64,000 nt of DNA, taken from contig NC_090709.1 in assembly GCF_040954835.1 (NCBI RefSeq), positions 47,066,429 to 47,130,428 on the forward strand, given 5' to 3'. Positions 986-63,589 of the stretch are shown here, piece by piece; the stretch's first letter is position 1, and every line of letters starts with the position of its first letter. A program made the position numbers and the translations under genes. The stretch is from Lepisosteus oculatus. Taxonomy: Eukaryota; Chordata; Actinopteri; Semionotiformes; Lepisosteidae. The notes under the pieces are model-generated. The model was not told where the DNA came from, searched no databases, and was given only the letters and a program-made list of their open reading frames with translations.

Positions 986-1674
986 CTCCCCTGTTGCTTT
1001 AATTGCAATATCTGAATCGAGACCCAAGCGCTAAGAAAGCTGAAAAACTCAGAAGTCATAAACCCGATTTTAATTTAGACACACATTTTCTAATGCAGCC
1101 TTCATTACAAGACAGTCTATTTCTCGAAAGCGTGTTATGTAAAAAAGAGAAAAACGAAAATATATGGCTGACTATTTAAAAGCTTAAGATTTTACTTTTG
1201 AGAAACTGTCATTTTATGTATCTAGACGCTTTTCAACCACTGCTTTTTGAACTTTGCTGTGCTTCCTGAATCATTTTCAGCGTTATAAACTGGGTGTGGA
1301 AGTAGCGCTCACTTTGTAGAGCAGTTGATAGACTGGAGCTGTTCAGACTACTCTTGTTATTTCTCAAATGCTTCCATCATTTTTCTTTCAGGCTAGGACG
1401 CGAGTGTGTACATGTGTTTGGTTTTCGTTTCACTGATTCCCATTGAAGATTTGTGAATTAACAAGGAAAGAATCAGTTGCCTCGGAAAGCAGAAGGTTTG
1501 GTTCTCAACGATCTTGAAGACACGCCCATGTAGAGCAGCGTGTGATGATTCGTACTATAAAAGACCAAGTGCTCAAAGTGACGTCTGTGTTTGCCGTTGA
1601 AACTTTTCATCTCGGGCGCACTTTTAGAAAACAAAGATAGAGCAGTTGTGTTGAATCACACTACGACAGCTGTC
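986..1674. other. Gene-free stretch, palindrome outer edge
   Basis: AT-rich. Homology to 61777-62455 begins near 1060 with GGCTGCATTAGAAAATGT on the minus strand. No tRNA, transposon end or coding region was recognised. Confidence 0.5.
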
Positions 1675-1746
1675 AGCAGAGTGGCGCAGCAGAAGCGTGC
1701 TGGGCCCATAACCCAGAGGTCGATGTATCAGAACCATCCATTGCTA
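1675..1746 (+). tRNA. tRNA-iMet(CAT), decaying left-arm copy
   Basis: 72 nt with the initiator features A1-T72, the anticodon arm GGGCCCATAACCC and an A-rich T loop. Compared with its mirror copy at 61705-61776 it has about nine changes. One acceptor pair is lost (A6 opposite A67), one becomes G-T, and the last T-stem pair is T opposite C with an altered T loop (ATCAGAA instead of ATCGAAA). The initiator GGG/CCC anticodon stem is intact. It may be a weak gene or an early pseudogene; the right-arm copy is the better candidate for the working initiator gene. Confidence 0.85.
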
Positions 1747-2291
1747 TACACACCGTCAGTCTAATGAAGTGAATTTAAACTGATCTTTTTCTCTCGTGTA
1801 TGTGCAAGCTTCACACTTACTGTATTCGTTAATCTTTACCAATAGCAGATGCTCAAATGTATCTTTGGTTGTTCTGCGATCCTTCATAGTTTCCTCAATT
1901 CCTTCAAATGAACATCCACATCAAAGCAATTATATATATATATTACAATTAAGGTACATATTAAAAATATCAACGCACATTTCTATAATGCTCATTTAAT
2001 AATGATTGTCAAGGATTGTCAAGTTCTCCAACAAATCTGTGTTCTAATTTTAAAATATTTTTGCTAAGGATACAACGGGTGTATAAATGAATTCTCCCAA
2101 CAGCCAGTTAAAGAAAAATTCCACACGTGAGGATGGTTTTCTTGGACATTGACTTAGGTACTGAATTGTTTACTTGTTTTAGTTGCACACGAGTAAAACA
2201 CGAAGATTTCCTGCAACATTCAAGAGGGTTTGCGAAGAAACCCCTTCAATTTTTAGCGGAGATTATGTTTACATCATCACAATCTGAAGCA
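1747..2291. other. Gene-free stretch with module B remnant
   Basis: Mirrors 61142-61704. Near 2000-2150 it carries the sequence also seen at 22770-22885 (landmarks ACACAGATTTGTT and GGGAGAATT), a module that recurs beside tRNAs. The short open frames here are not kept in the mirror copy and are not coding. Confidence 0.5.
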
Positions 2292-2345
2292 CGTCCCTGA
2301 GTGCGTTTGACCCACCAGCCCTTTGTTTAACAGCTGCAGAGGGAC
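2292..2345 (-). pseudogene. tRNA-Asn(GTT) remnant with deleted D arm
   Basis: The minus strand starts GTCCCTCTG, then jumps to CAGCTGTTAAAC (anticodon arm with GTT), then GCTGGTGGGTCAAACGCAC (T arm) and AGGGAC (acceptor). The acceptor ends still pair, but the D arm and part of the anticodon stem are missing, leaving 54 nt instead of about 74. The mirror copy at 61088-61141 has the same gap, so the deletion predates the palindrome. Confidence 0.65.
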
Positions 2346-3364
2346 ACATTCCCGTTGCTTTTCACAAATCACTGGCATTTTTTTGCAGCATTTCTTCTGT
2401 CCTGAGAAGCAAGATTTGTATTTTATCTTTCAGAAGTTGTATGAATTTCTTGAAGTTCAAAAACAACTTGTTCCTGAAAAGAAATGAACACTTGCTTCAA
2501 AGTAAATCAAGACGTATGTGTCTCTTGCTGTGTGTGCTCTTATCTGTCCATCTCTCTCTCCTCTTCTCTCTGGCAGTCTGTGTAGAGTATCTGAAGGGGA
2601 TGTAACACCACTTGGAAAAGAAGAAAAATTATCAGGAAAAATTCTCAGGAAAATTCTCAGGCAGAATAAAAAATCATTATTCTTTTCTCAGTCAGATTCA
2701 TTGCTCAGACTCACACTCAGACAGGATCTCAACTCCGTACTGCTCTCTATCCTCACAATCCAGAACCAGAAGATATTCAGACAATCAGTGCTGCTACATG
2801 AACAATATCAGACAGAACAGCCTGGACTCATGTCACATTTCCCCCTTTTATCCTTCCTCCCAGCCCTCTTAGAGACATAGAAAAGCCCCTGGTTCTCCTC
2901 TCTGTGAACTGGGCTCAGGGGTCACTGATCTGGCAGTTGTGGGCTCTGTTCCAGGTCGAAAGCAAGAAGGTTCTATTAACGCTTTCCAGGACTTCCAGCC
3001 CTTCAGTATTACTTTCTTTACTGTATGTCAGCCTCCCAAAATGTTTATAAATGTTTTATAACACACATGAGTGTGGAATTATCTTATTATTTATATATAG
3101 TATTTATGTAATAAACACCAGTAGTGACAATATGATCAGTATATTGATTATTTGTAGCCGATTGTCCGATGGTCGTGTCTACAATAGTGACCATTTGACC
3201 AGTCTGTAGCTCTGGGCAGTGGGATTCAGATCACACAGAAGACCTGTCTGTGTGTGATTCCACACCAGCCCTGGGATTCAGCTACTCTCACAAATGTCTC
3301 ACAGACTGTCTTATAAATTTACAATTAGATGAAGTCATGTAACAGTTTTACAGATAATTTAAAT
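2346..3364. other. Gene-free stretch
   Basis: Mirrors about 59890-60850. A 120-codon open frame at 2518-2880 is interrupted or shifted in the mirror copy, so I do not call it a gene. It contains CT-rich tracts and AT-rich DNA. Confidence 0.5.
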
Positions 3365-3720
3365 AATCAGACAGCAGTTTTGGCAGTGGATACATCTCCA
3401 CATGGGGGAAAGGGACAGTAAAATAGTAAGGAAAATACAAAAGAAGAAACTGAAATATATGCGCTCACTGTAAAGTACGAAGAGGTGGTCAGACAAGCAA
3501 AACAGCTTTGCGGATAATGTGAAGTGACATTGTTTTGTGTCAATCAGCTCATGGATTCAGCTTCATGTGCCTTAAGCTGTGCATGCCTTCATGAAGACTC
3601 TCTTTAAGATGATTGCACCTTTCATTGTCAAATCGCCTTCTTTGGATACAAAAGTTGCACCAATACTAAGAGAAAGGATGAGGAATGGCTTTTATCAAGC
3701 GATTGCAGTGTTTGTTTGAC
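3365..3720 (+). repeat. tRNA-associated module A, copy 1
   Basis: Landmarks in order are CATCTCCACATGGGGGAAAG, GAGGTGGTCAGACAAGCAAA, GTCAATCAGC, CATGTGCCTTAA, and CTCTCTTTAAGATGATTGCA. The same order recurs at 21590-21990, partly at 22870-23170 (minus), 33330-33620 and 34370-34680 (minus), and in mirror at 59560-59890. No coding frame is shared. It is a non-coding unit carried along with tRNA genes. Confidence 0.7.
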
Positions 3721-4431
3721 TGAGGATCCTTGTGTGCTGAACTGGCCTCTGGAGAAGTGTAGTGCAGTAAAACAGAAGGTTTGTGTCACTCAAGATTGTT
3801 ACAGAACAGAACAATACAATTACAATACTTTTGTGAGAGTAAATATTACTGGTGCATCACAGTTCTTATAATGGTGAAAACAGGAGCACCTTCTCTACAT
3901 TTTTGACTGAAGTATTTAAACGGAAAGAAATACTATCACTATGCAATTCATAAATGCAATTGAGCTCCTATAAAAGTTCTAGTCTGAAGAAACAATGTAT
4001 AGAATTAGGTGACAATATCGGAATTCATTCAAATGCACAAGATTAATTTTCAGCAACAAAAAAAGTGCTCGGAAATATTTTACAAGAATGAAACCTTACA
4101 TTCACCTAAATAAGCATTCACCCTCTACATTAGCAGAGAACAGTAGGACAGAAGGTTAGTGTCACTGGACACTGCATCAGAGAGGCCGATCTCTTCTCCC
4201 TCATTATGCAGGCTTACCCACTCATGATGAACTGTCCTCCAGCGATACTCAGCTGCCATCATCGACTCAGACATGACGTTCATGTACATATTATACCTTA
4301 ATATGGCACTGCGTTACAATAATTTGATCAAAACAACTGGTGAATAAATAATAATCAAATATTTTTTCCTTTCTTTTAGTAGCTAAAGACCAAAAAAGAA
4401 GCATTTATTCTTTTCCTCTCCTACCAGCCCT
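3721..4431. other. Gene-free stretch
   Basis: Mirrors 58813-59559. AT-rich, with no recognised element. Confidence 0.45.
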
Positions 4432-4513
4432 TACAAGTCACCCAGTTTTTAGTTTAGAGCTGGATTAAAGCTCCAGTCTCTTTGAGGGTTGAGTTGGAAT
4501 CCCACAGCTGCCA
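4432..4513 (+). pseudogene. tRNA-Leu(AAG)-type pseudogene, anticodon now AAA
   Basis: The 3' two thirds read CTGGATTAAAGCTCCAG (anticodon arm), a class II variable arm, the T-arm end GGAATCCCACAGCTGCCA and the acceptor 3' end, matching vertebrate tRNA-Leu(AAG). The anticodon loop gives AAA instead of AAG. The acceptor 5' strand and D arm are unrecognisable. The mirror copy at 58731-58812 is decayed in the same way. Confidence 0.7.
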
Positions 4514-5026
4514 AATATCTCCAACTATCTCAGTGTTAAGAAGCAAAAAAACTCACATTTGCTGCAGAAGGAACAGGAGAATTCGTGCCATTCAGCCTTA
4601 TAGCGTGATGTCATTTTCTCATTCTCGTTTTTAGATGCTTGTGATCGAATCTATGATACTTATGAGTGTGGTCACCCTCCATAAAGGTAGCACAGATACA
4701 ACGTGCCACGTTTTCAGAGAATCACATTAATTACAGGTCAGAAGAAGGCGACAAAGTGTCCGCTAGGCAGTCCAGCGATTTCAATGGTGTTCTCTGTTGT
4801 TTAGGTCCAGAATGACACCCGTTACAACCAGGAAACACACAGTGTCAGGCATCAAAAAGACTTCCCAAAACCCTGATCCTCTCCTTGATCCGGTGATGGC
4901 ATCCAGACATTTCCTGCAACACACACAGGATACAGTCTTCAACAACACGAGTGAAAAGCTAATTCCCAACCTTTGCAATCCTTTGCAAAGAAGGACCACA
5001 TGTGCTCAGTGTTAAATGCACTGTTC
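4514..5026. other. Gene-free stretch
   Basis: Mirrors 58216-58730. Open frames of about 72 codons on both strands (near 4781-5015) are mutually overlapping shadows with no family resemblance. Confidence 0.45.
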
Positions 5027-5549
5027 ATTATTAATAATAATAATAATCTTTACATTATATAGCGCTTTTAAAGGTGGCTTTTCAAAGCACTTTACAGAAT
5101 GACAACAATAAAGTTAAAAAAATACACAAGATAAGCAGGATGAGAATACACAGTTAGAGGAGACAATAGATGGTGGTATAAAATACAGTAGGAACAGAGG
5201 GGTAAAGAATAGTGCATTAAAAGCTCTTCTAAAGAAGAGGGTTTTGAGTCTGGATTTGAAGGAGTTTAGAGAAGGTGACTGATATCCTTGGGGATAAAGA
5301 TCCAGAGCTTTGGGGCAAAACAGGAGAAGGCCCTGTCACCCATAGAGTGTAGTCCAGATGGACTGGGGGACAGATAGGAAAACACAATTAGAAGAGCGAA
5401 GGTTGTGAGGTGGGGAGTAGGGCGATAACCCAGACAGGTACTGAGGTGCCAAGCCATGGAGAGCTTTATAGCTGAGCTTGAGGATTTTGAAGTTGACAGG
5501 AAGCTAGTGCAAGGACTCCAGGACAGGAGTGATGTGATCACAGTCCAGT
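5027..5549 (-). mobile_element. L2-type LINE, 3' fragment
   Basis: 5'-truncated LINE on the minus strand. Decayed frames (5266-5541) encode the C-terminal tail typical of fish L2 reverse transcriptases, with motifs such as YKALHGLAPQYL (seen in the mirror copy), MGDRAFSCFAPKLWIF and IPKDI. The 3' end reads GTAAAGTGCTTTG, then GCGCTATATAATGTAAAG and an (ATT)n tail at about 5027-5050. It lacks the endonuclease and the RT core and is shared with the right arm (57690-58215). Confidence 0.8.
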
Positions 5550-5658
5550 GCTAATTTCTTTCTTGTGGCTGCTGGTTCATTTTCAACTGTGGACTCTTAA
5601 GAAGTCCTGTATTTGACTTGATCAACACCAATCCCTAGAGGATTTAGAAAGGTTCAAT

Positions 5659-5663
5659 AAAAA
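5659..5663 (-). terminator. Pol III terminator of left tRNA-Arg
   Basis: A run of five T on the minus strand, about 8 nt past the tRNA 3' end. A run of this kind ends RNA polymerase III transcription. The right-arm copy has the same run at 57579-57583. Confidence 0.7.
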
Positions 5664-5670
5664 TGATACA

Positions 5671-5763
5671 TGACTCTGGTAGGACTCGAACCCACAACCT
5701 TTGAATGACTTCATTCTATCAAGGCTTAGAAGTCCAACGCGCTCTCCATTGCACCACAGAGCC
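5671..5763 (-). tRNA. tRNA-Arg(TCT) with intron, left arm
   Basis: Class I tRNA with the 7-bp acceptor GGCTCTG/CAGAGTC, an anticodon stem TTGGA/TTCAA around CTTCTA, and anticodon TCT. An intron of about 20 nt lies after position 37, as in vertebrate tRNA-Arg(TCT). Box A is TGGTGCAATGG and box B is GGTTCGAGTCC. It differs from the right copy at three sites in 92 (for example T-stem CCTAC versus CCCAC, still paired with a G-T wobble). The terminator follows at 5659. A Tc1 terminal repeat touches its first base, so its 5' flank is transposon DNA. Confidence 0.95.
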
Positions 5764-5961
5764 AGCTGTATGAAAAAGTGTTTGCCCCCTTCCTGATTTC
5801 TTATTTTTTTGCATGTTTGTCACACTGAAAGTTTTAGATCATCAAACAAATTGAAATATTAGACAAAGATAACACAAGTAAACACAAAATGCAGTTTTTA
5901 AATGAAGGTTTTTATTATTAAGGGAAAAATTAAACCTACATGGGCCTGTCTGAAAAAGTGA

Positions 5962-6210
5962 TTGAGATTTATCAGTCTGGAAAAGTTTATAAAGCCATTT
6001 CTAAAGACCAAAATTATCCCAAGAGCACAGCGAAGACTCATCCAAGAGGTCACAAAAAACCCCACAACAACATCCAAAGAACTGCAGGCTTCACTTGCCT
6101 CAGTTAAGGTCAGTGTTCATGACTCCACCATAAGAAAGAGACTGGGCAAAAATGGCCTGCATGGCAGAATTCCAAGACGAAAACCACTGATGAGCCAGAA
6201 AACATCTTGA
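5962..6210 (+). pseudogene. Tc1 transposase, N-terminal piece
   Basis: 82 codons, starting MRFISLEKFIKPF. They contain the end of the first helix-turn-helix (about residues 1-30) and the second DNA-binding helix region ([20 protein letters not shown]). The expected first 30 or so residues of the family are missing upstream. The frame then breaks: the next conserved block (HLDDPQDFW, then the catalytic [10 protein letters not shown]) is read in another frame near 6206-6280. Confidence 0.8.
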
Positions 6211-6533
6211 TGACCCCCAAGACTTTTGGGAAAATACTCTGTGGACTGACGAGACAAAAGTTGAACTTTTTGGAAGGTGTGTGTCCCATCTGGCGTAAAA
6301 GTAACACAGCATTTCAGAAAAGGAACATCATACCAACAGTAAAATATGGTGGTGGTAGTGTGATGGTCTGGGGCTGTTTTGCTGCTTCAGGACCTGGAAG
6401 ACAAGCTGTGGTAAATGGAACCATGAATTCTGCCGTCTACCAAAAAATCCTGAAGGAGAATGTCCGGCCATCTGTTCGTGACCTCAAGCTGAAGCGCACT
6501 TGGGTTCTGCAACAGGACAATGATCCAAAGCGG
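6207..6533 (+). pseudogene. Tc1 transposase, catalytic middle piece
   Basis: The conserved block [20 protein letters not shown], then [17 protein letters not shown] and [10 protein letters not shown], carries the second catalytic Asp. The first Asp (WTDET) is present in a neighbouring frame at about 6240-6260, so at least two frame changes separate the parts. It is cut by the LINE immediately after DNDPK. Confidence 0.85.
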
Positions 6534-8287
6534 GCAAACTTCTATGCCCACTTTGATGCTCTGAACAAGGGCAATGCTGAGAAGACCCCAAGTGTGCAGG
6601 GCGAGTTTGATCTGAAACTCTCAGAGCAGGACGTGCAGAAGACTCTGAGCAGGGTGAAAATCCGTAAGGCTGCAGGGCCTGATGGGATACCACCTCACGT
6701 CCTGAGGACATGTGCAGCCCAGCTGACCACAGTGTTTACGGACATCTTTAACTCCTCCCTGTCACAGTCCATGGTCCCCACCTGCTTTAAAAAAAACACT
6801 ATTGTTCCAACCCCCAAAAAGACAAAAGTGACATGCCTGAATGATTACTGCCCAGTAGCATTAACATCTGTGGTGATGAAATGCCTGGAGAAGCTGGTGT
6901 TGTCACACATCAACTCCTCCATCACAGAATCCCTGGACCCCTTGCAGTTCGCCTACCAGAACAACAGAGCAGTGGATGATGCTGTCTCCCTGGCTCTGCA
7001 TACAACCTTGGAACACCTGGACACTAAGAACTCGTATGTGAGAATGCTGTTTGTGGACTACGGTTCAGCATTCAATTCCATCATACCCAGTCAACTGGTG
7101 ACAAAGCTCAGGGGATTAGGTCTGTGCAACTCTGTCTGCAACTGGCTGCTGGACTTTCTTATTGAGAGACCACAGGTGGTGCGGATAGGCAATAAAACAT
7201 CAACACCACTCACCCTGAGCACTGGAACCCCACAAGGCTGCTGTCTGAGTCCAAGGTTGTACTCCCTATTTACTCACGACTGCACAGCAAGACACAGCAA
7301 CAACCGCATCATTAAGTTTGCCGATGACACCACTATAATAGGACTGATCAGTGATGATGACAAGTCCACTTACAGGGATGAAGTTGTACAGCTGCTTAGG
7401 TGGTGTCATAGCAATAACCTGGACTTGAACATAAAGAAAACGAAAGAGCTAAAAGTGGACTTTCGGAGACACAGGCCATACACTCACAGCCCACTCAGTA
7501 TTGATGGAACGGAAGTGGAAACAGTCACCAGCTTTAGGTTTTTGGGAATTCACATCTCTAAAGATCTAACCTGGACTGTGAACACTGACTCTATCATGAA
7601 GAAGGCTCAGCAGCGCCTTTATTTCTTGAGGTGCCTCAAGTGATGGGGGATGCCAATACATGTGTTGGTGAACTTCTACTGCTGCACCATCGAGAGCATC
7701 CTCACCAACGGGATCACTGTGTGGTATGGTAACACCTCTTCGCGAGAAAGAAAGGCACTACAGAGAATGGTCAATATGGCCCAGAAGATCATCGGCTGCA
7801 GTCTCAACGAGATTAAACAGCTCTATGAGGACCGCTGCCGTGGTAGAATTCTGGCCATCACAGAGGACAGTCACCACCCCGGGCATGAGCTCTTCACCCC
7901 ACTGCCCTCAGGCAAGAGAAATAAGAGCATACGGACACTTAACACTAGATTCTTCAATGGCTTCTATCCACAAGCAGTGAGACTGGCGAACAAATTTAGC
8001 CATCCCCCTCGGACCACACCTACACCATCACCATCTACCTCTTTATGATTTCTTATCTATTGCACATCTCCAGTCATTGTTTACACGTCTGTATTGTTTA
8101 CATTCAAACTGTCTACATGTTTACTTGCACATTGTCTATTGTTTGTTTGTACATTGTCTTGATGCACTGTTTGCACTTTGTCTTGTTTTTTACACTTGTT
8201 TTACAATCGAGAGACTTTCTGTAAGTAAGAATTCCATTGTACCAATACCGGTTACATATGGCAATAAAGTTCAAGTTCAAGTTCAAA
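6530..8287 (+). mobile_element. 5'-truncated CR1/L2-superfamily LINE (Rex1-like) inside the Tc1
   Basis: Enters the Tc1 transposase gene after the DNDPK codons and ends with AATAAA (8263-8268) and a short tandem tail of TTCAAG units (8268-8287), after which transposase sequence resumes. It encodes the RT and C-terminal region but no endonuclease. The insertion is at the same site in the right arm (54993-56706), so it is older than the palindrome. The subfamily name is an inference from the RT motifs. Confidence 0.85.
6537..8048 (+). pseudogene. LINE reverse transcriptase, left copy
   Basis: Motifs in order: RKAAGPDGIPPHVLR (finger), LNDYCPVALTSVVMKCLEK, FAYQNNRAVDDAV, MLFVDYGSAFNSI (motif A), GTPQGCCLSP (motif B), IKFADDTTIIG (catalytic FADD), and the C-terminal block TVWYGNTSSRERKALQRMV to LPSGKR. 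One in-frame TGA at 7641-7643 splits the frame (6207-7643 and 7650-8048 are in the same phase). The right copy has lost 42 bp that include this stop. Motif A has FVDYGSAF where the family usually has a Phe-Ser after the Asp. Confidence 0.88.
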
Positions 8288-8330
8288 ACACACCAGCAAG
8301 TCCACCTCTGAATGGCTTAAGAAAAACAAA

Positions 8331-8567
8331 ATGAAGACTTTGGAGTGGCCTAGTCAAAGTCCTGACCTGAATCCGATTGAGATGTTGTGGCATGACCTTA
8401 AAAAAGCGGTTAAGGCTCGAAAACCCTCCATAGTGGCTGAATTACAACAATTCTGCAAAGATGAGTGGGCCAAATTTCCTCCACAGCATTGTAAAAGACT
8501 CATTGCCAGTTATCGCAAACGCTTGATTGCAGTTGTTGCTTCTAAGGGTGGCCCAACCAGTTATTAG
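8331..8567 (+). pseudogene. Tc1 transposase, C-terminal piece
   Basis: 78 codons starting MKTLEWPSQSPDLNPIEMLW, holding the third catalytic residue (Glu of PIEMLW), then the family ending FCKDEWAKF and VVASKGGPTSY followed by a stop. It is separated from the rest of the gene by the nested LINE. Confidence 0.88.
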
Positions 8568-8580
8568 GTTTAACTAAATG

Positions 8581-9289
8581 TTATCCACAACTTCAAACAC
8601 CTGTGAGAAACGGGCAACTGCAGTGTTTCGCCTGCTGGCTCCACAGATAATCCTTTTTTGAAGTTTAAGGAGAGGATTTCTTTGTCAATTCAATTAAACG
8701 TTTCAGAAATGCTGAACTATTGATGTGTTTCACACGCAGCACGGGCTCTCCTTTGCTTACAAATATTTTTTTTACACCAATTTACTCAACTACGATTTTG
8801 CTGAGCATTTTGTTTGCTTGCTTCCTATTGTATACTGCTCTGATTTCTGTATTGTTCAATTTCCCTGTTGATTTTAATTTCTTGTTTTCTAAGACAATCA
8901 GACCAGCTGTTCTGACCTTACCCTGCACTGGAGCCACTCTTTTCTTTCCAAAGGCGTGGAGAGAGATACTACTGCAGGTAACACCCCATGAGAAACATCA
9001 TGAGTTTCTGGAAAAGCTCTCTACCTGCCCGCTCCCCACACCGACGTGTGTGAGCAGGGATTTAAAGGGACATTCTGAAGTGTAGAAACATTTTATCGTT
9101 ACATACTTTTTCTGTGCAGTTAGTTCTCCTTCAACTCCGCCCGACAACAGAGGTCGTTTTTAATACAGGAGTAAAGGCACACTGCACATCTGCAAAACAT
9201 CACGTTAAGGTTTAGGGAGAGCGACATCAGTGATTGGAAGGTACAGATGCAGCCATTCAAAGTGCGCAGTACAGACACATACCGGAGGT
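8581..9289. repeat. tRNA-associated module E, copy in left arm
   Basis: About 8970-9250 recurs, diverged, at 30316-30560 in the spacer on the same strand. Landmarks are GGTAACACCCC, AAAGGGACATT, TAGAAACATTTTA and CGCCCGACAAC followed by GGAGTAAAGGCAC or similar. It is mirrored at about 54010-54310. A 121-codon open frame at 8720-9085 differs in frame from the mirror copy and matches no family. Confidence 0.6.
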
Positions 9290-9425
9290 AATTGGCTACG
9301 GCGTCGCGCATTGTGACGCGCGATGACGCAAAATACCGCGGTACGTGATTGGTTGACCGACAGGGGCACTCGTAGTCCGTTGGTCGGTCGTAGAAAGATT
9401 TACAGTAAATGTCTTTACTGTGCAC
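9290..9425. promoter_or_regulatory. CpG-rich patch with CRE- and CCAAT-like sites
   Basis: About 16 CpG in roughly 96 bp (9299-9395), while flanks are AT-rich and CpG-poor. On the minus strand it contains TTGCGTCATCGCG (CRE/ATF-like) and CCAATCACGTACCGCGG (CCAAT plus E-box-like). There is a 7-bp inverted repeat GACCGAC (9355-9361) / GTCGGTC (9383-9389). It is kept in the right arm (about 53890-54010). Promoter function is inference; no downstream gene is recognised. Confidence 0.35.
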
Positions 9426-9609
9426 ATTTTAGCATTGAATATTCATATGGAATTTTACCACTGAAGGGAAATCTTAGTACCTGAGCATAAAAAGAATAGG
9501 AGCATACTGTAACGCGTGTGAAGGCCATAAACGATATTAATTTTGGAACATAAACATACAGTATATGGCTGGTCTCTGTACTTTAAATAAAAAATACACA
9601 CCAGTATTC

Positions 9610-10440
9610 CATTTCTCCCTTAACATTTTAAGCTTCGAAGTCTTTAACTAATGTGATACTGGTGTCAACAAGCATACTTTTAGAATTTGATTAAAAGGGA
9701 ATATAATATGGAATTGCGTATCTAAAGAAATTAATAACGATATAATTATATTCATGTACCGCAACACAAGAATAGTACACGCTGTACATTGTCTGTTGAT
9801 AATGTTTCTGTAGTGCTTTTTCAGCACTCTGCATGTGACCTTGCTGGTGGCACTGTGGGTTAGGCTCCTGACTCCTACCTCACATGCTGTGTGTTTGAAT
9901 CCTGCTGGAGTCATGACTTTTTTTTCAACAAACATTTCTTTGAAAAAATAAAACATTTCCCTGGGTCAGAGATTAAATAAAACCTCACTCGCACCAAACA
10001 AATTTATATTTCTAAATATCACAACATGATCGAATTTAAGTCATTTTAATAACGATGAATAGTCACCTATGTGTTACAATATAAACATTTATATTGATTT
10101 AAATCGCGTTTTGATTTAAATCACAAACGCAGGTTTAAATATATGTGTTTTTTGATTCACAATCAGACAAATGCAACATAAATTGATATCTTTGTCTTCT
10201 AAGTATCTTAATAAACTTTCAGCATAGCATTCTCCCCGTTTAGATTTATTTTTCTTGGGATCCTGGGATCAAACATGGAAAGATTAGATTGTAATCGTTT
10301 TTTTTTTTTAAATACATTTTAGAAAAGTGTAATCTATACTAAAAAGTTGTACACCACCTGCTATAAAGATACATATTGTAATACTTTCGGGTTCGGATAG
10401 GACAGACACGAGAACTCAGACTTGCGGAGTTAAAGCAAGT
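9610..10440 (+). repeat. Module F, left-arm copy
   Basis: Present three times: here, mirrored at 52850-53690, and again at 48200-48850 in the right arm in this orientation. Landmarks are CTCCCTTAACATTTTAAGC, AAATTAATAACGATAT, ATCACAACATGATCGAATTT, and ACTCAGACTTGCGGAGTTAA at the end. AT-rich and non-coding. Confidence 0.75.
9832..9915 (+). repeat. tRNA-derived SINE-like fragment
   Basis: Reads TGGTGGCACTGTGGGTTAG, then CTCACATGCTGTGTGTTTGAATCCTGC in two parts, resembling the tRNA-derived head of a dispersed fish repeat (GGTGGC.CAGTGGGTTAG then GTTCGAATCC). Box A- and box B-like blocks are spaced as in a tRNA, but the stems do not fold. Mirrored at 53360-53445. Confidence 0.45.
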
Positions 10441-10540
10441 TAAAGCCTTGATTTTATATATCACCTTTAAAAGTGGCATCTCAAAGCAAAGTAAATACCC
10501 AACACTGATTGTACCAATCTGTCATGCTAATAAAGCACCT

Positions 10541-10590
10541 TGAATTGAGAGAGAGAGAGAAGGGGAGGGCGAGCAAGCGAGAGAGCATAG
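10541..10590 (+). repeat. GA-rich simple repeat
   Basis: Short GAGAGA-rich tract; its mirror is at about 52690-52740. Ordinary microsatellite. Confidence 0.6.
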
Positions 10591-11074
10591 CCAGGACAGA
10601 CAGGCAAATAAGATACACTCCACAGACATTCACAACAGCGACATATCATAAAACATTTGCACATATAGTTAAATTATTATTTGTTTTTCAGGAAGTTAAA
10701 AAAAAAACACTTGAATTACTTATCCAGTCTCTCGAAATAAAATTATTTTTCAAGCAATGCAACTAACGTCGGGCAATGTGTCTTTTTTAATCCAACATTG
10801 ACAGCCACATCTTAAATCTTGTCAGTCAGCTCTTTTTTCTCTATTTGAATTGTGGCAATTCAAACAACCTGGGATAACAAGTGGTCTCAAAGTCACAGAG
10901 CTCACAGAGCTTTCACAACAGATGACAATTCCCTTAGTCCTTCCTTAGTCTTCCTGAAATTGTCAGATTATGAGTGAACAAAAACATTTTATTAAAAATT
11001 TAATAAAAATTATTTTTTAATCGCATATCTAAGGAAATAGCAGTATAACCTTGTTCATGCAGTGGCATGTTACA
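10591..11074. other. Gene-free stretch
   Basis: AT-rich, mirrored at 52200-52690. Nothing recognised beyond A and T runs. Confidence 0.45.
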
Positions 11075-11445
11075 TTATTAATTTGGGTGTCTCCTCTTGC
11101 CAGAAAGCTCTAAATTGCATTTTGAGTTCGGTTTTTGACTTTTTTTAAATTGCAACCCATAAATAAAGCTGATACTGTTTAGACTTTTAATTATTTTAAA
11201 CTGTATTACAGCAGCACAATGCAACGTAAATTGCAAAAATGCACTTGGAATCTGTCCAAGCCCTGCTTTGTCAGGCATTTTCTTTTACTGTAATGGACAT
11301 AAAAACTCCCTTGCTTTTAACAGAGTGTTTTATAATATCTAACTACGAAAATTATTTAAACTGCTACACTTATCATTCAACCAGAGCTCAAAATATCACA
11401 AGGATCCTCAAGAGCACAGCAAAGACTGTATTAAAAGTATACTAG
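11075..11445 (+). repeat. Module G, left-arm copy
   Basis: The part from about 11240 to 11440 (ACTTGGAATCTGTCCAAGCC, through AACTACGAAAATTATTTAAA, to AGAGCACAGCAAAGACTGT) occurs again at 47865-48065 in the same orientation and inverted at 51858-52050. Non-coding. The copy near 51858 received an LTR insertion at its ACAG/CTGT. Confidence 0.75.
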
Positions 11446-42483: not shown

Positions 42484-42486
42484 CGC

Positions 42487-51857: not shown

Positions 51858-53359
51858 CTGTGCTCTTGAGGATCCTTGTGATATTTCGAGCTCTGGTTGA
51901 ATGATAAGTGTAGCAGTTTAAATAATTTTCTTAGTTAGAAATTATGAAACGCTCTGTTAAAAGCAAGGGAGTTTTTATGTCCGTTACAGTAAAAGAAAAT
52001 GCCTTACAAAGCAGGGCTTGGACAGATTCCAAGTGCATTTTTGCAATTTACGTTGCATTGTGCTGCTGTAATACAGTTTAAAATAATTAAAAGTCTAAAC
52101 AGTATCAGCTTTATTTATGGGTTGCAATTAAAAAAAAGTCAAAAACCGCACTCAAAATGCAATTTAGAGCTTTCTGGCAAGAGGAGACACCCAAATTAAT
52201 AATGTAACATGCCACTGCATGAACAAGGTTATACTGCTATTTCCTTAGATACGCGATTAAAAACATATTTTTTATTAAATTTTTAATAAAATGCTTTTGT
52301 TCACTCATAATCTGACAATTTCAGGAAGACTAAGGAAGGACTAAGGGAATTGTCATCTGTTGTGAAAGCTCTGTGAGCTCTGTCACTTTGAGACCACTTG
52401 TTATCCCAGGTTGTTTGAATTGCCACAATTCAAAGAGAGAAAAAAGAGCTGACTGACAAGATTTAAGATGTGGCTGTCAATGTTGGATTTAAAAAAACAC
52501 ATTGCCCAAAGTTAGTTGCATTGCTTGAAAAATAATTTTATTTCGAGAGACTGGATAAGTAATTCAAGTGTTTTTTTTAACTTCCTGAAAAACAAATAAT
52601 AATTTAACTATATGTGCAAATGTTTTATGATATGTCGCTGTTGTGAATGTCTGTGGAGTGTATCTTATTTGCCTGTCTGTCCTGACTGTGCTCTCTCGCT
52701 TGCTCGCCCTCCTCTTCTCTCTTTCTCTCAATTCAATTCAAGGTGCTTTATTAGCATGACAGATCGGTACAATCGGTGTTGGGTATTTACTTTGCTTTGA
52801 GATGCCACTTTTAAAGGTGATATATAAAATCAAGGCTTTAACTTGCTTTAACTCCGCAAGTCTGAGTTCTTGTGTCTGTCCTATCCGAACCCGAAAGTAT
52901 TACAATATGTATCTTTATAGCAGGTGGTGTACAACTTTTTAGTATAGATTACACTTTTCTAAAATGTATTTAAAAAATAAAATCGATTACAATCTAATCT
53001 TTCCACGTTTGATCCCAGGATCCCAAGAAAAATAAATCTATACGGGGAGAATGCTATGCTGAAAGTCTATTAAGATACTTAGAAGACAAAGATATCAATT
53101 TATGTTGCATTTGTCTGATTGTGAATCAAAAAACACATATATTTAAACCTGCGTTTGTGATTTAAATCAAAACGCGATTTAAATCAATATAAATGTTTAT
53201 ATTGTAACACATAGGTGACTATTCATTGTTATTAAAATGACTTAAATTCGATCATGTTGTGATATTTAGAAATATAAATTTGTTTGGTGCGAGTGAGGTT
53301 TTATTTAATCTCTGACCCAGGGAAATGTTTTATTTTTTCAAAGAAATGTTTGTTGAAAA
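51858..53359. other. Gene-free stretch with modules G and F
   Basis: Mirrors 9900-11410. Modules G (51858-52050) and F (from 52850) are in inverted orientation. The only other recognisable item is the GA/CT simple repeat near 52690-52740. Confidence 0.5.
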
Positions 53360-53445
53360 AAAAGTCATGACTCCAGCAGGATTCAAACACACAGCATGTG
53401 AGGTAGGAGTCAGGAGCCTAACCCACAGTGCCACCGGCAAGGTCA
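53360..53445 (-). repeat. tRNA-derived SINE-like fragment, right copy
   Basis: Mirror of 9832-9915. Confidence 0.42.
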
Positions 53446-53889
53446 CATGCAGAGTGCTGAAAAAGCACTACAGAAACATTATCAATAGACAATGTACAGC
53501 GTGTACTATTCTTGTGTTGCGGTACATGAATATAATTATATCGTTATTAATTTCTTTAGATACGCGATTCCATATTATATTCCCTTTTAATCAAATTCTA
53601 AAAGTATGCTTGTTGACTCCAGTATCACATTAGTTAAAGACTTCGAAGCTTAAAATGTTTAGGGAGAAATGGAATACTGGTGTGTATTTTTTATTTAAAG
53701 TACAGAGACCAGCCATATACTGTATGTTTATGTTCCAAAATTAATATCGTTTATGGCCTTCACACGCTTTACAGTATGCTCCTATTCTTTTTATGCTCAG
53801 GTACTAAGATTTCCCTTCAGTGGTAAAATTCCATATGAATATTCAATGCTAAAATGGGCACAGTAAAGACATTTACTGTAAATCTTTCT

Positions 53890-54010
53890 ACGACCGACCA
53901 ACGGACTACGAGTGCCCCTGTCGGTCAACCAATCACGTACCGCGGTATTTTGCGTCATCGCACGTCACAATGCGCGACGCCGTATCCAATTACCTCCGGT
54001 ATGTGTCTGT
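53890..54010. promoter_or_regulatory. CpG-rich patch, right copy
   Basis: Mirror of 9290-9425. CRE-like TTGCGTCATCGC, CCAATCACGTACCGCGG and the GACCGAC/GTCGGTC pair are kept, and CpG density is similar to the left copy. Confidence 0.33.
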
Positions 54011-54704
54011 ACTGCGCACTTTGAATGACTGCATCTGTACCTTCTAATCACTGATGTCGCTCTCCCTAAACCTTAACGTGATGTTTTGCAGATGTGCAGT
54101 GTGCCTTTACTCCTGTATTAAAAACGACCTCTGTTGTCGGGCGGAGTTGAAGAAGAACTAACTGCACAGAAAAAGTATGTAACGATAAAATGTTTCTACA
54201 CTTCAGTCCCTTTAAATCCCTGCTCACACACGTCGGTGTGGGGAGCGGGCAGGTAGAGAGCTTTTCCAGAAACTCATGATGTTTCTCATGGGGTGTTACC
54301 TGCAGTAGTATCTCTCTCCACACCTTTGGAAAGAAAAGAGTGGCTCCAGTGCAGGGTAAGGTCAGAACAGCTGGTCTGATTGTCTTAGAAAACAAGAAAT
54401 TAAAATCAACAGGGAAATTGAACGATACAGAAATCAGCTCAGTATACAATAGGAAGCAAACAAACAAAATGCTCAGCAAAAATCGTAGTTGAGTAAATTG
54501 GTTTAAAAAAAAATAGTTGTAAGCAAAGGAGAGCCCGTGCTGCGTGTGAAACACATCAATAGTTCAGCATTTCTGAAACATTTAATTGAATTGACAAAGA
54601 AATCCTCTCCTTAAACTTCAAAAAAGGATTATCTGTGGGGCCAGCAGGCGTAACACTGCAGTTGCCCGTTTCTCACAGGTGTTTGAAGTTGTGGATAACA
54701 TTTA
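54011..54704. repeat. Module E, right-arm copy
   Basis: Mirrors 8576-9289. The 162-codon open frame at 54066-54554 (minus) differs in frame and ends from the left copy and matches no family. Confidence 0.5.
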
Positions 54705-54711
54705 GTTAAAC

Positions 54712-54948
54712 CTAATAACTGGTTGGGCCACCCTTAGAAGCAAAAACTGCAATCAAGCGTTTGCGATAACTGGCAATGAGTCTTTTACAATGCTGTGGAG
54801 GAATTTTGGCCCACTCATCTTTGCAGAATTGTTGTAAATCAGCAACATTGGAGGGTTTTCGAGCCTTAACCGCTTTTTTAAGGTCATGCCACAACATCTC
54901 AATCGGATTCAGGTCAGGACTTTGACTAGGCCACTCCAAAGTCTTCAT
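54712..54948 (-). pseudogene. Tc1 transposase C-terminal piece, right copy
   Basis: 78 codons, starting MKTLEWPSQSPDLNPIEMLW and ending GGPTSY; a few replacements relative to 8331-8567. Confidence 0.86.
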
Positions 54949-54992
54949 TTTGTTTTTCTTAAGCCATTCAGAGGTGGACTTGCTGGTGTGTT

Positions 54993-57274
<2,282 letters not shown>

Positions 57275-57478
57275 TCACTTTTTCACACAGGGCCATGTAG
57301 GTTTGGATTTTTTTTTCCCCTTAATAATAAAAACCTTCATTTAAAAACTGCATTTTGTGTTTACTTGTGTTATCTTTGTCTAATATTTCAATTTGTTTGA
57401 TGATCTGAAACTTTCAGTGTGACAAACATGCAAAAAAATAAGAAATCAGGAAGGGGGCAAACACTTTTTCACACAGCT

Positions 57479-57571
57479 GGCTCTGTGGCGCAATGGAGAG
57501 CGCGTTGGACTTCTAGGCCTTGATAGAATGAAGTCATTCAAAGGTTGTGGGTTCGAGTCCCACCAGAGTCA
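57479..57571 (+). tRNA. tRNA-Arg(TCT) with intron, right arm
   Basis: Acceptor GGCTCTG/CAGAGTC, anticodon TCT, a 20-nt intron after position 37, box A TGGCGCAATGG (57486-57496) and box B GGTTCGAGTCC (57550-57560). All stems pair; the T stem is GTGGG/CCCAC. It is slightly closer to the vertebrate consensus than the left copy. Confidence 0.96.
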
Positions 57572-57578
57572 TGTGTCA

Positions 57579-57583
57579 TTTTT
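57579..57583 (+). terminator. Pol III terminator of right tRNA-Arg
   Basis: Five T about 8 nt after the tRNA end. Confidence 0.7.
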
Positions 57584-57689
57584 ATTGAACCTTTCGAAAT
57601 CCTCTAGGGATTGGTGTTGATCAAGTCAAATACAGGACTTCTTAAGAGTCCACAGTTGAAAATGAACCAGCAGCCACAAGAAAGAAATT

Positions 57690-58215
57690 AGCACTGGACT
57701 GTGATCACATCACTCCTGTCCTGGAGTCCTTGCACTGGCTTCCTGTCAACTTCAAAATCCTCAAGCTCACCTATAAGGCTCTCCATGGCTTAGCACCTCA
57801 GTACCTGTCTGGGTTATCGCCCTACTCCCCACCTCACAACCTCCGCTCTTCTAATTGTGTTTTCCTATCTGTCCCCCAGTCCATCTACATTCTATGGGTG
57901 ACAGGGCCTTCTCGTGTTTTGCCCCAAAGCTCTGGATCTTTATCCCCAAGGATATCAGAGAGTCACCTTCTCTAAACTCCTTCAAATCCAGACTCAAAAC
58001 CCTCTTCTTTAGAAGAGCCTTTAATGAACTATTCTTTACCTCTCTGTTCCTACTGTATTTAATACCACCATCTATTGTCTCCTCTAACTGTGTATTCTCA
58101 TCCTGCTTATCTTGTGTATTTTTTTAACTTTATTGTTGTCATTCTGTAAAGTGCTTTGAAAAGCCACCTTTAAAGGCGCTATATAATGTAAAGATTATTA
58201 TTATTATTATTAATA
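57690..58215 (+). mobile_element. L2-type LINE, 3' fragment, right copy
   Basis: Mirror of 5027-5549. HWLPVNFKILKLTYKALHGL and APQYLSGLSPYSPP are readable, then MGDRAFSCFAPKLW and SLNSFKSRLKTLFF. The tail is GCGCTATATAATGTAAAG plus (ATT)n. Confidence 0.82.
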
Positions 58216-58730
58216 ATGAACAGTGCATTTAACACTGAGCACATGCGGTCCTTCTTTGCAAAGGATTGCAAAGGTTGGGAATTAGCTTTTCACTCGTGTT
58301 GTTGAAGACCGTATCCTGGCTGTGTTGCAGGAAATGTCTGGATGCCATTACCGGATCAAGGAGAGGATCAGGGTTTTGGGAAGTCTTTTTGATGCCTGAC
58401 ACTGTGTGTTTCCTGGTTGTAACGGGTGTCATTCTGGACCTAAACAACAGAGAACACCATTGAAATCGCTGAACTGCCTAGCGGACACTTTGTTGCCTTC
58501 TTCTGACCTGTAATTCATGCGATTCTCTGAAAACATGGCACGTTGTATCTGTGCTACCTTTATGGAGGGTGACCACACTCATAAGGATCATAGATTCGAT
58601 CACAAGCATCTAAAAACGAGAATGAGAAAATGACATCACGCTATAAGGCTGAATGGCATGAATTCTCCTGTTCCTTCTGCAGCAAATGTGAGTTTTTTTG
58701 CTTCTTAACACTGAGATAGTTGGAGATATT
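58216..58730. other. Gene-free stretch
   Basis: Mirrors 4514-5026. Confidence 0.42.
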
Positions 58731-58812
58731 TGGCAGCTGTGGGATTCCAACTCAACCCTCAAAGAGACTGGAGCTTTAATCCAGCTCTAAACTAAAAACT
58801 GGGTGACTTGTA
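58731..58812 (-). pseudogene. tRNA-Leu(AAG)-type pseudogene, right copy
   Basis: Mirror of 4432-4513, with the same AAA anticodon and lost D arm. Confidence 0.7.
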
Positions 58813-59559
58813 AGGGCTGGTAGGAGAGGAAAAGAATAACTGCTTCTTTTTTGGTCTTTAGCTACTAAAAGAAAGGAAAAAAATATTTGATTATTATTTT
58901 TTCACCAGTTGTTTTGATCAAATCATTGTAACGCAGTGCCATATTAAGGTATAATATGTACATGAACGTCATGTCTGAGTCGAAGATGGCAGCTGAGTAT
59001 CGCTGGAGGACAGTTCATCATGAGTGGGTAAGCCTGCATAATGAGGGAGAAGAGATCAGCCTCTCTGACGCAGTGTCCAGTGACACTAACCTTCTGTCCT
59101 ACTGTTCTCTGCTAATGTAGGGGGTGAATGTTTATTTAGGTGAATGTAAGGTTTCATTCTTGTAAAATATTTCCGAGCACTTTTTTTGTTGCTGAAAATT
59201 AATCTTGTGCATTTGAATGAATTCAGATATTGTCACCTAATTCTATACATTGTTTCATCAGACTAGAACATTTAGAGGAGCTCAATTGCATTTATGAATT
59301 GCATAGTGATAGTATTTCTTTCCGTTTAAATACTTCAGTCAAAAATGTAGAGAAGGTGCTCCTGTTTTCACCATTATAAGAACTGTGATGCACCAGTAAT
59401 ATTTACTCTCACAAAAGTATTGTAATTGTATTGTTCTGTTCTGTAACAATCTTGAGTGACACAAACCTTCTGTTTTACTGCACTACACTTCTCCAGAGGC
59501 CAGTTCAGCACACAAGGATCCTCAGTCAAACAAACACTGCAATCGCTTGATAAAAGCCA
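58813..59559. other. Gene-free stretch
   Basis: Mirrors 3721-4431. Confidence 0.42.
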
Positions 59560-59890
59560 TTCCTCATCCTTTCTCTTAGTATTGGTGCAACTTTTGTATG
59601 CAAAGAAGGCGATTTGACAATGAAAGGTGCAATCATCTTAAAGAGAGTCTTCATGAAGGCATGCACAGCTTAAGGCACATGAAGCTGAATCCGTGAGCTG
59701 ATTGACACAAAACAATGTCGCTTCGCATTATCTGCAAAGCTGTTTTGCTTGTCTGACCACCTCTTCGTACTTTACAGTGAGCGCATATATTTCAGTTTCT
59801 TCTTTTGTATTTTCCTTTCTATTTTACTGTCCCTTTCCCCCATGTGGAGATGTATCCACTGCCAAAACTGCTGTCTGATTATTTAAATTA
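59560..59890 (-). repeat. tRNA-associated module A, right-arm copy
   Basis: Mirror of 3365-3720. Confidence 0.68.
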
Positions 59891-61087
59891 TCTGTAAAAC
59901 TGTTACATGACTTCATCTAATTGTAAATTTATAAGACAGTCTGTGAGACATTTGTGAGAGTAGCTGAATCCCAGGGCTGGTGTGGAATCACACACAGACA
60001 GGTCTTCTGTCAGAGCTGTGTAGCTCTGTCCCACTGCTCAGGGCTACAGACTGGTCAAATGGTCACTATTGTAGACACGACCATCGGACCATCGGCTACA
60101 AATAATCAATATACTGATCATAGTGTCACTACTGGTGTTTATTACATAAATACTATATATAAATAATAAGATAATTCCACACAAATGTGTGTTATAAAAC
60201 ATTTATAAATTTTGGGAGGCTGACATACAGTAAAGAAAGTAATACTGAAGGGCTGGAAGTCCTGGAAAGGGTTAATAGAAACTTCTTGCTTCTGACCTGG
60301 AACAGAGCCCACAACTGCCAGATCAGTGACCCCTGAGCCCAGTTCACAGAGAGGAGAACCAGGAGCTCTTCTCTGTCTCTAAGAGGCTGTGAGGAAGGAG
60401 AAAAGGGGGAGATGTGACTTGAGTCTAGGCTGTTCTGATATAATTCATGAAGCAGCACTGATTGTCTGAATATTTTCTGGTCCTGGATTGTGAAGATAGC
60501 GAGCAGTATGGAGTTGAGCTTCAGTCTGAGTGTTAGTCTACACTGTGAATCTGAATGAGAAGAGAATATTGATTTTTTATTTTGCCTAAGAGAATTTTTC
60601 TTCTTTGCCAGGTGGTGTTACATCCCCTTTAGATACTCTACACAGACTGCCAGAGAGAAGAGGAGAGAGAGAGAGATGGACAGATAAGAGCACACGCAGT
60701 GAGAGAGACATACGTCTTGATTTACTTTGAAGCAAATGTTCATTTCCTTTCTGGAACAAGTTGTTTCTGAACTTCAAGACATTCATACAACTTCTGAAAG
60801 ATAAAATACAAATCTTGCTTATCAGGACAGAAGAAATACTGCAAAAAAATGTCAGTGATTTTTTCTCATTTTAACGAAATGTGCAGAAAAACAACAGCAG
60901 TGCATCTCCATCGTCTTGATTTAGCTTAATACAAGTATTCACTCCCTTTAATGAAAATAAAAACCTGTGAAAGATGAAATAAAGTTCTTGATTATTCTTC
61001 GTCAGTGCAGAAGAAGTACTGCCAGCTGGCAGGAAAATGCCAGTATTTTATTTTCTTAAACTGCAAACGTATGAATGGTGAAAATGT
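59891..61087. other. Gene-free stretch with short internal repeat
   Basis: Mirrors 2346-3364 and a little beyond. The phrase GAAAGAT-AAATACAAATCTTGCTTATCA followed by GAAGAA.TACT occurs near 60795, again diverged near 60970, and near 63050. No gene recognised. Confidence 0.42.
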
Positions 61088-61141
61088 GTCTCTGTGCAGC
61101 TATTAAACAAAGAGCTGGTGGTTCAAGCACACTCAGGGACA
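61088..61141 (+). pseudogene. tRNA-Asn(GTT) remnant, right copy
   Basis: GTCTCTGTG, CAGCTATTAAAC, GCTGGTGGTTCAAGC and AGGGAC. The D arm is deleted as in 2292-2345, and the anticodon is ATT here. Confidence 0.65.
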
Positions 61142-61704
61142 TGCTTCAGATTGTTATGATGTAACATAACCTTCGCTAAAAATTGATGGGCTTTCTTCCC
61201 AAACCCTCTTGAACTTCGCAGGAAATGTGCGTTTTACTTGTGTGGAACTACAAGTAAAGAATTAAGTACCTAAGTCAATGTCCAAGAAAACCATCTTCAC
61301 ATGGGGAATTTTTCTTCAACTGGCTGTTGGGAGAATTCATTTATACACCCGTTGTATCCTTAGCAAAAATATTTTAAAATTAGAACACAGATTTGTTGGA
61401 GAACTTGACAGTCCTTGACAATTATTATTAAATAAGTTTTATACAAATGTGCGTTGCTATTTTAAATATGTACCTTAATTGTAATATATATAAACATAAT
61501 TGCTTTGATATGGATGTTCATTTGAAGAATTTGAGGAAACTATCAAGGATCGCAGAACAACCAAAGATACATTTGGGCATCTGCTATTGGTAAAGATTAA
61601 AGAGTACCATAAGTGTGAAGCTTGCATACACACGAGAGAAAAAAATAGTTTAATGCACTTCATTAAACGGATGGTGTGCTTATCAATCGTGCATAAAATG
61701 TACA
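61142..61704. other. Gene-free stretch with module B
   Basis: Mirrors 1747-2291; 61290-61410 is module B. Confidence 0.45.
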
Positions 61705-61776
61705 TAGCAGAGGATGGTTTCGATCCATCGACCTCTGGGTTATGGGCCCAGCACACTTCCACTGCACCACTCTGCT
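61705..61776 (-). tRNA. tRNA-iMet(CAT), right copy, likely intact
   Basis: 72 nt with the acceptor AGCAGAG/CTCTGCT, A73, an anticodon stem with the three G-C pairs of initiators around CAT, and the T arm GATGG/CCATC with the eukaryotic initiator loop ATCGAAA. The D stem has G-T pairs in place of some C-G pairs. TTTT follows about 10 nt downstream. It is better preserved than 1675-1746. Confidence 0.95.
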
Positions 61777-62219
61777 GACAGTTATCTTAGTGTGATGCAA
61801 CACAACTTTTCTATCTTTGCTTTCGAAAAGTGCGCCCAAGATGAAAAGTCTAAACGGTTAACGCAGACGTCACTTTGAGCACTTGGTCTTTTATAGTACG
61901 AATCATCACAAGCTGCTCTACATTGGCGTGTCTTCAAGATCGTTGTGAACCAAAGCTTCTACTTTCCTAGGCAACTGATTCTTTCGTCATTAATTCCCAA
62001 ATCTTCACTGAGAATCAGTGAAACGAAAACCAAACACACTCACTTCCTAGCGCGAAAGAAAAATGAGTGAAGCATTTGAGAAATAGCAAGAGTAGTCTGA
62101 ACAGCTCCAGCCTATCAACTGCTCTACAAAGAGATCGCTCCCTCTATACCCATTTTATAACACTGAAAATGATTCAGGAAGCACAGCAAAGTTCTAAAAG
62201 CAGAGGTTGAAAAGCATCT
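61777..62219. other. Gene-free stretch, outer edge of right arm
   Basis: Mirrors 1240-1674; nothing recognised. Confidence 0.42.
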
Positions 62220-62268
62220 GAAAAAAAATAAAATAAAAAAGAAATAAATAAAAATAATAATAAAAAAA
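62220..62268 (+). repeat. A-rich simple repeat
   Basis: AAAT/AAAAT-type run of about 49 bp, absent at the mirror position near 1230. Confidence 0.7.
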
Positions 62269-63589
62269 GCGTCTGGATACGTAAAATGTCAATTTATCTA
62301 AGTAACATCTTCAGCTTTGAAAGATTGTAATCCATATATTTTTGTTTCACTCTTTTTTACATAACAGGCTTTCAATAAATAAACTGTATTGTAATGAAGG
62401 CTGCATTAGAAAATGTATATCTACTGTAGCATTGTTAAATAAAATCGGGACATGTGCCAGTCTCGAATTAATCACTCTTTGCAGGCACACTACGGAAACC
62501 TGCAGATGTTCGTTGGGAGAAGTGACTCCTGCAAAGAGTGTTAATCGTCGAGAAAAGCACTCCTCTCGGGAATATATTTCCAATTTCTGAAGAGCCGATT
62601 TTCACGATTTTTTCCCCGATATTTATTTTCCGGTGCGGTTATTGATCGCGTTCGAAAGATGATTTTCATAATGGACGTGTTACCTGCAAAGTCACAGTTA
62701 AACTGTTAATGGCGAAAAGATTCAGAATATTTTTTTTTAGAATACCCATTTAATTTTTTATCATTCTTACAAGCAAATTGTTTATGGAAACGCTAGTGTA
62801 AATTACAGTGTAAATAGACAGGAGCTATTACTATTTTAAACACTAGTTGTGATAGCTGTAGCTCTTATCTGCATCTGAGTTCCCGGTATGAATACTATAG
62901 GTTATAATTTATCTGCTCGGGCTAGGATACGTTCCTGTTTCTCAGTTTGATCAAATATGTATATTGTTAAACCCTGCGAATTGAAAAAAACGGTGTCGGT
63001 GGCTCTGCACTTTAATCATTTAGCGCTATCTATACAGCTTGCGAAAGATGAAACACAAATCTTGCTTATCAGTGAAGAAGAGTTACTCCCAGCAGGCCAG
63101 CTAATACAGCAAAGTTTTTTTTCACCCTGACCCAGAGAATGGAGAAAAGAGAGGCGCCTGTGGCTCTGCAGTTTAATCAATTTGTGAGTTCGGCGGTTAA
63201 CTGAAAGAATGGTAAACGGAGCTCGCCCCAGCCAATCCTTATTCTTTTAAAGAGGAGAAAAATTAACTTTGCCGGCATTTTTACAAGCTATAAAAGATAG
63301 CACAGAAAAAAAACACTCTACAGATTATTTTTTGGAGCCGAAGCAGCGATGTCCTTTCCGATTCAATTGATAAAGCTCACCCAGTGAATACTGTTAACAG
63401 AATGTGAAAGCATGGTCAACTTTGTAACTGCAACCACAGGAAAAACAGCAAGAAGCAGACTCCATTCTCCATTTAAATCTGTCGTGAGAGGTATGTTTTT
63501 TGAATGCATGAAGTCAATCCCACGATCGCTTTTGAACTTGGACAAAGTACTTCCAAAGGAGCGCTGTATGCAAAGATTTAACAAGCTCA
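62269..63589. other. Gene-free stretch beyond the palindrome
   Basis: Arm similarity ends near 62455. Overlapping 60-87 codon frames on both strands match nothing I know. Confidence 0.42.

Follow-up and report, generated by a model that had tools for sequence, protein, structure and literature searches.

Does a 64,000-nucleotide stretch of the Lepisosteus oculatus genome (contig NC_090709.1, positions 47,066,429 to 47,130,428; this whole stretch is called the window) hold one giant imperfect palindrome, and what history would give such a palindrome arms that are more alike in their interior than at their ends? A sequence-only reading of this DNA had proposed arms of 24.9 and 31.4 kb around a 5.1-kb spacer, with edges at 1060 and 62455. 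Self-BLAST of the window agrees with this proposal to within about 35 bp. Eight colinear inverted blocks match 1076-25941 (arm A) with 62423-31045 (arm B), and the tRNA landmarks are mirrored on opposite strands. The palindrome exists in the given sequence, and it is presumably present in the living genome as well. Chance similarity was rejected as an explanation, because the eight blocks keep a colinear order and are 97.2% identical over 23,607 aligned sites. The structure has three parts:

1076..25941, forward strand: palindrome arm A, 24,866 bp, colinear with arm B in inverted orientation, sharp ends
31045..62423, reverse strand: palindrome arm B, 31,379 bp, colinear with arm A in inverted orientation, sharp ends
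25942..31044, no strand: spacer, 5,103 bp, between the arms

At the inner edge, about 30 matching bases (with one mismatch) are followed by unrelated sequence, and at the outer edge the same transition occurs after about 28 matching bases. Beyond the outer ends, a sensitive search found no more colinear similarity at E<0.1 in the flanks of 1,075 and 1,577 bp that lie inside the window; homology interrupted by an insertion could resume outside it. Within the spacer, the sole inverted self-match at E<=1e-3 covers about 143 bp at 65.8% identity (28167-28309 against 29078-29220) and overlaps part of a tRNA-Lys gene. The spacer also shows short, weak matches to arm sequence.

To quantify the divergence between the arms, the eight blocks were aligned with MAFFT and ungapped sites were counted. 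Large pieces present only in arm B were omitted from this count, as were A 2351-2365, A 22601-23369 and A 24847-25065; of the omitted sequence, A 22822-23369 does match arm B, at 95.3%. The arms differ at 664 of the 23,607 aligned sites (2.8%; 372 transitions and 292 transversions), and these differences are unevenly spread. Read error was rejected as their chief source, since just 15 of the 56 gaps inside the blocks have a length of 1 bp, which we take to be unlike long-read error. Penalised segmentation resulted in three segments with 10.1%, 2.07% and 12.6% divergence:

1076..2885, forward strand: outer rim of arm A, 10.1% diverged (176/1,750) by segmentation
2886..25549, forward strand: core of arm A, 2.1% diverged (444/21,500) by segmentation
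25550..25941, forward strand: inner rim of arm A, 12.6% diverged (44/350; segment to 25934), 10-13% across methods

A blastn-based alignment gave similar values for the outer rim (171/1,750, 9.8%), the core (432/21,493, 2.0%) and the inner rim (37/356, 10.4%), and placed the outer change point at 2888 with a profile interval of 2884-2992. In that analysis, none of 300 homogeneous shuffles produced a single split that passed the penalty. In 200-bp steps, the outer rim forms a plateau of 6.5-12.8%, followed by 4.5% at 2876-3275 and then 0.5%. With the alignment cut into 47 windows of 500 sites each, the highest divergence was seen in numbers 0-3, 40 and 44-46, and seven of these eight fall among the eight terminal ones (hypergeometric 1e-6, for a set picked after seeing the profile). 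The arm interior is thus less diverged than the homologous rims, as gene conversion between the arms would have it.

We consider it probable that the palindrome goes back to an old inverted duplication and that gene conversion between its arms later replaced the 22.7-kb core, with the old edges left behind. In this history, the duplication would have given two arms flanking the 5.1-kb spacer, which would have drifted to about 10-12% divergence. Conversion would then have overwritten the core while the rims at both ends stayed unconverted, either as one copy of about 22.7 kb resembling break-induced replication or as several overlapping shorter tracts. Since then, the arms would have re-diverged by about 2% and gained private insertions and deletions, the large ones mostly as extra sequence in arm B. 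One old duplication with later interior overwriting is the simplest history because both steps between rim and core sit within single alignment blocks. Conversion requires homology on either side of a break, so that the rims would be expected to escape it. Patchiness inside the core leaves room for several tracts. In the middle of the core (A 3138-24071; 390 differences at 20,000 sites) the longest identical run is 683, a length reached in 0.0004 of 5,000 shuffles, whose mean is 331, and the variance/mean ratio of the differences is 1.74 (0.0026 of shuffles). Divergence is also lower at 15300-21200 (76/5,900) than at 3138-15300 (251/12,007; Fisher 1.4e-4, post hoc).

Several observations weigh against this history. 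Conversion tracts in the human Y palindrome P6 are given in the excerpted text of PMC3723533 with a mean minimum of 2,068 bp and a longest tract of more than 9 kb, the longest reported tract that we found, and the 22.7-kb core exceeds it. The rise towards the inner end is stepped (1.3% at 15300-21200, 3.2% at 21200-22600, 3.1% at 23370-24300, 4.2% at 24300-24846, 2.6% at 25066-25500, then 11%), and a single-split fit on A 15000-25942 places the change at 21321, not at 25550. The inner rim is itself short (350 sites) and in part hard to align. Identical runs of 200 or more are not unusually many in the middle of the core (11; 0.095 of shuffles). A clear sign of GC bias was not seen in arm A (40.1% GC minus the gypsy part) in comparison to the spacer (41.5%), the left flank (37.1%) and the right flank (40.0%). 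Finally, it takes an outgroup or a population sample to tell conversion from other block overwriting or from exchange of the rims with other copies. The sequence-only reading had compared the palindrome to those of vertebrate sex chromosomes and amplified loci, whose arms exchange sequence by conversion. The rim/core divergence supports exchange, and the palindrome does carry tRNA genes and transposons. The inverted colinearity, the sharp ends, the two divergence levels and two private insertions with empty sites are directly visible; that the overwriting was by conversion specifically we infer, and either arm could be the donor.

The sharp edges and the diverged rims also bear on whether two haplotypes or two related loci were joined head to head during assembly. 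Erroneous scaffolding can create artificial palindromes, according to the excerpted text of PMC7953838. The outer ends are visible over the short flanks only, and private transposon insertions occur between alleles too. A simple fold-back, however, should pair up to the fold and out to the contig end, whereas here a 5.1-kb spacer is unpaired and the outer ends are sharp, so that homology is continuous neither to the fold nor, within these short flanks, to the outside. Divergence of 10-13% confined to both ends of the homology is not expected of alleles, and the window is without any N. The fold-back of two haplotypes, named in the sequence-only reading as the main alternative, therefore fits poorly in its simple form, while a complicated mis-join might still yield this arrangement. 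Taken together, we regard an assembly artefact as improbable.

The tRNA genes, which were found with Rfam and ARAGORN, comprise four mirrored pairs and two single genes in the spacer:

1675..1746, forward strand: tRNA-Met copy, arm A, 37.0 bits
61705..61776, reverse strand: tRNA-Met copy, arm B, 49.7 bits
5671..5763, reverse strand: intron-bearing tRNA, arm A, 50.7 bits, Arg-TCT read from the sequence
57479..57571, forward strand: intron-bearing tRNA, arm B, 58.8 bits, Arg-TCT read from the sequence
21430..21523, reverse strand: tRNA-Ile-TAT with intron, arm A, 55.2 bits
34744..34837, forward strand: tRNA-Ile-TAT, arm B, 37.1 bits, 5-bp deletion in the 3′ acceptor strand compared to arm A
25765..25836, reverse strand: tRNA-Thr-CGT, arm A, 61.9 bits
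31141..31212, forward strand: tRNA-Thr copy, arm B, 30.7 bits
28268..28340, reverse strand: tRNA-Lys-TTT, single, spacer (Rfam/ARAGORN)
29431..29502, reverse strand: tRNA-Ala-CGC, single, spacer (Rfam/ARAGORN)

We take the Met pair (1675 forward, 61705 reverse) to be initiator tRNA. ARAGORN assigned no isotype to the intron-bearing tRNA of arm A at 5671..5763. BLAST alone revealed two remnants, one of tRNA-Ile (17304-17360) and one of tRNA-Ala (19914-19970).

Each rim contains a tRNA gene, and DNA around tRNA genes mutates fast. A true inverted duplication without any conversion could accordingly have rims that differ through the local mutation rate, or through alignment trouble. Divergence is indeed raised near these genes: it amounts to 14-15% within 100 bp of tRNA-Met and to 17% and 9% beside tRNA-Thr, 13 of 100 sites differ in one flank of the core tRNA-Ile, and divergence within 300-bp neighbourhoods somewhat exceeds the core mean at Arg (2.9%) and at Ile (3.5%). 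The outer rim, however, is a plateau followed by a fall, and it still shows 9.7% divergence (106/1,088) after removal of tRNA-Met and 300 bp on either side. Likewise, the inner rim minus tRNA-Thr and 100 bp on either side retains 10% (12/120). As the rims stay high without the tRNA neighbourhoods, tRNA-centred mutation was rejected as their sole cause. CpG transitions make up no larger share of the differences in the outer rim (30/176) than in the core (103/444). A duplication without conversion is thus unlikely, and tRNA-linked mutation may add to the divergence of the rims without producing them.

Selection to preserve the tRNA genes might instead have kept the palindrome, as is thought for testis genes in mammalian Y palindromes. 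Four mirrored tRNA pairs are present, and the core pairs (Arg 3/93 differences; Ile 2/89 plus the 5-bp deletion in arm B) are more alike than the rim pairs, which differ most (Met 9/72, Thr 11/72). The tRNA copies are, however, about as diverged as their flanks, so that selective maintenance is not supported and the idea of tRNA genes as maintained cargo was not borne out. Moreover, each pair has a copy that scores lower by 8 to 31 bits: Met and Arg in arm A, Ile and Thr in arm B, with Ile in arm B lacking 5 bp of its acceptor strand. We therefore find it very improbable that selection on tRNA genes kept the palindrome. The sequence-only reading had also pointed to arm-specific tRNA decay. Damaged copies do exist, but the weaker ones are split between the arms, which means that decay is not confined to one arm, and much of the pattern is explained by position, since the Met and Thr pairs lie in the rims and those of Arg and Ile in the core.

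The order of events under the favoured history, an old inverted duplication with an overwritten core, is informed by a smaller repeat inside the arms:

17304..21523, no strand: older inverted repeat inside arm A with 76-89% identity between its halves, counterpart in arm B at 34744-38960

In this repeat, the tRNA-Ile remnant at 17304-17360 mirrors tRNA-Ile at 21430-21523. Its four inner copies group by position, with 1/334 differences between A1 and B1 and 7/321 between A2 and B2, and more between copies of the same arm (A1/A2 24/321, B1/B2 28/321). This grouping indicates that the small repeat predates the last homogenisation of the large arms. Between the nested halves (18174-19568 and 36699-38090) lies a relative of a 1,447-bp element found in arm B only, about 86% identical over 370 bp and 65% over about 500 bp.

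Further landmarks are transposons and arm-private sequence:

41075..42703, forward strand: Tc1-type transposon, arm B only, TA flanks, empty site in arm A
50411..51857, no strand: solo long-terminal-repeat-like element, arm B only, 1,447 bp, TG...CA, CTGT on both sides, empty site in arm A
45695..49268, no strand: B-only segment, 3,574 bp, weak tRNA match and copies of nearby arm sequence
45187..45585, no strand: B-only piece inside a gypsy-like element, 399 bp, tRNA-like remnant at 45276-45355
12639..14092, reverse strand: gypsy-like pieces (reverse transcriptase, RNase H, integrase), by Pfam in arm A and by DNA alignment in arm B

The four B-only pieces total 7,049 bp and exceed the difference in arm length of 6,513 bp; the excess is partly offset by the A-only piece 24847-25065 and part of 22632-23365. 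The Tc1-type and 1,447-bp elements are confined to arm B and have empty sites in arm A, which indicates that they were inserted after the last copying there. The Tc1-type transposon carries a Sleeping-Beauty-type domain (Pfam) and may be young. It contains an uninterrupted stop-to-stop frame of 350 amino acids (41431-42483). Judged by content alone, this type of Tc1 element, the intron in tRNA-Ile and the clustering of tRNA genes would point to a teleost fish. Of six short repeat-end motifs sought, just the one derived from the window itself gave a match. A reverse-transcriptase element was detected by Pfam in both arms; like the gypsy-like pieces, it is common to both and thus either older or copied along. 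Among ten frames searched against Pfam, all clear matches were of transposon type, and two frames also match ALKBH8_N beside reverse transcriptase. The 399-bp piece probably reflects a deletion in arm A, while the 219-bp piece at 24847-25065 was either gained by A or lost from B.

Smaller rearrangements were also observed. The 3,574-bp segment has its weak tRNA match at 46619-46691 and repeats A 9575-9766, 10003-10434 and 11241-11475 in a different order, with orientation opposite to the copies that arm B itself has; identity is about 95% for 432 bp and 80-94% for the others. The remnant at 45276-45355, presumably tRNA-Ser-like, matches the tRNA-Sec model weakly (30.4 bits, below the gathering score of 47). 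At 23144-23614, arm A carries a 244-bp tandem duplication that is single-copy in arm B.

The locus is best explained as a segment that was duplicated in inverted orientation within a tRNA cluster rich in transposons. More tentatively, since a small inverted repeat bounded by tRNA-Ile is nested in the 61-kb palindrome, the cluster might be growing by repeated inverted duplication, with conversion tracts as long as about 22 kb renewing its arms and no protein gene to protect; we see some, though limited, chance of this. Large palindromes are often interpreted via the genes they protect. Here, the arms consist of transposons and tRNA copies, several of them decayed, and yet show a homogenised core with old rims. 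Such a locus would allow the mechanics of copying between arms to be viewed apart from selection acting on genes, and its divergence strata would serve as a relative clock for the last copying of each part.

Known systems are compared here as described in the excerpted texts of the cited papers. Among the open-licence papers listed, titles and abstract openings showed neither a palindrome that carries tRNA genes nor a comparable one from a fish. Dense clusters of tRNA genes and pseudogenes are likewise found in zebrafish Chr4R region 2 and in stickleback, those of zebrafish in repeat-rich DNA (PMC11075544, PMC2888827); the string 'palindrom' occurs 0 times in these two texts. In contrast to the mirrored pairs described here, neighbouring tRNA genes in Danio run parallel in nearly all pairs (PMC2888827). 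The willow palindrome W.P1 resembles the present one in having a short spacer between arms of about 20 kb, along with transposons, indels and conversion to a limited extent, whereas the willow W-chromosome palindromes are gene-carrying and female-specific (PMC7023750). Mammalian X/Y palindromes (human Y P6, ape sex chromosomes) have, as here, large inverted arms, a spacer, arm homogenisation and kilobase-scale tracts (PMC8981503, PMC11168930, PMC3723533). The arm identity of 98-99% used for them is above the 97.2% overall and 97.9% in the core at ungapped sites found here, where the clear Pfam matches in the ten frames are of transposon type only. Measured by the definition in PMC11168930, the arms (24.9 and 31.4 kb) exceed the minimum of 8 kb and the spacer (5,103 bp) lies below the limit of 500 kb, but arm identity falls short of at least 98%, a value that the best single block surpasses with 98.2% over 7.4 kb. 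The locus behaves like a large palindrome more than it qualifies as one by this 98% rule, and we regard it as a representative of a known structure type that is out of the ordinary, its cargo included, yet understandable.

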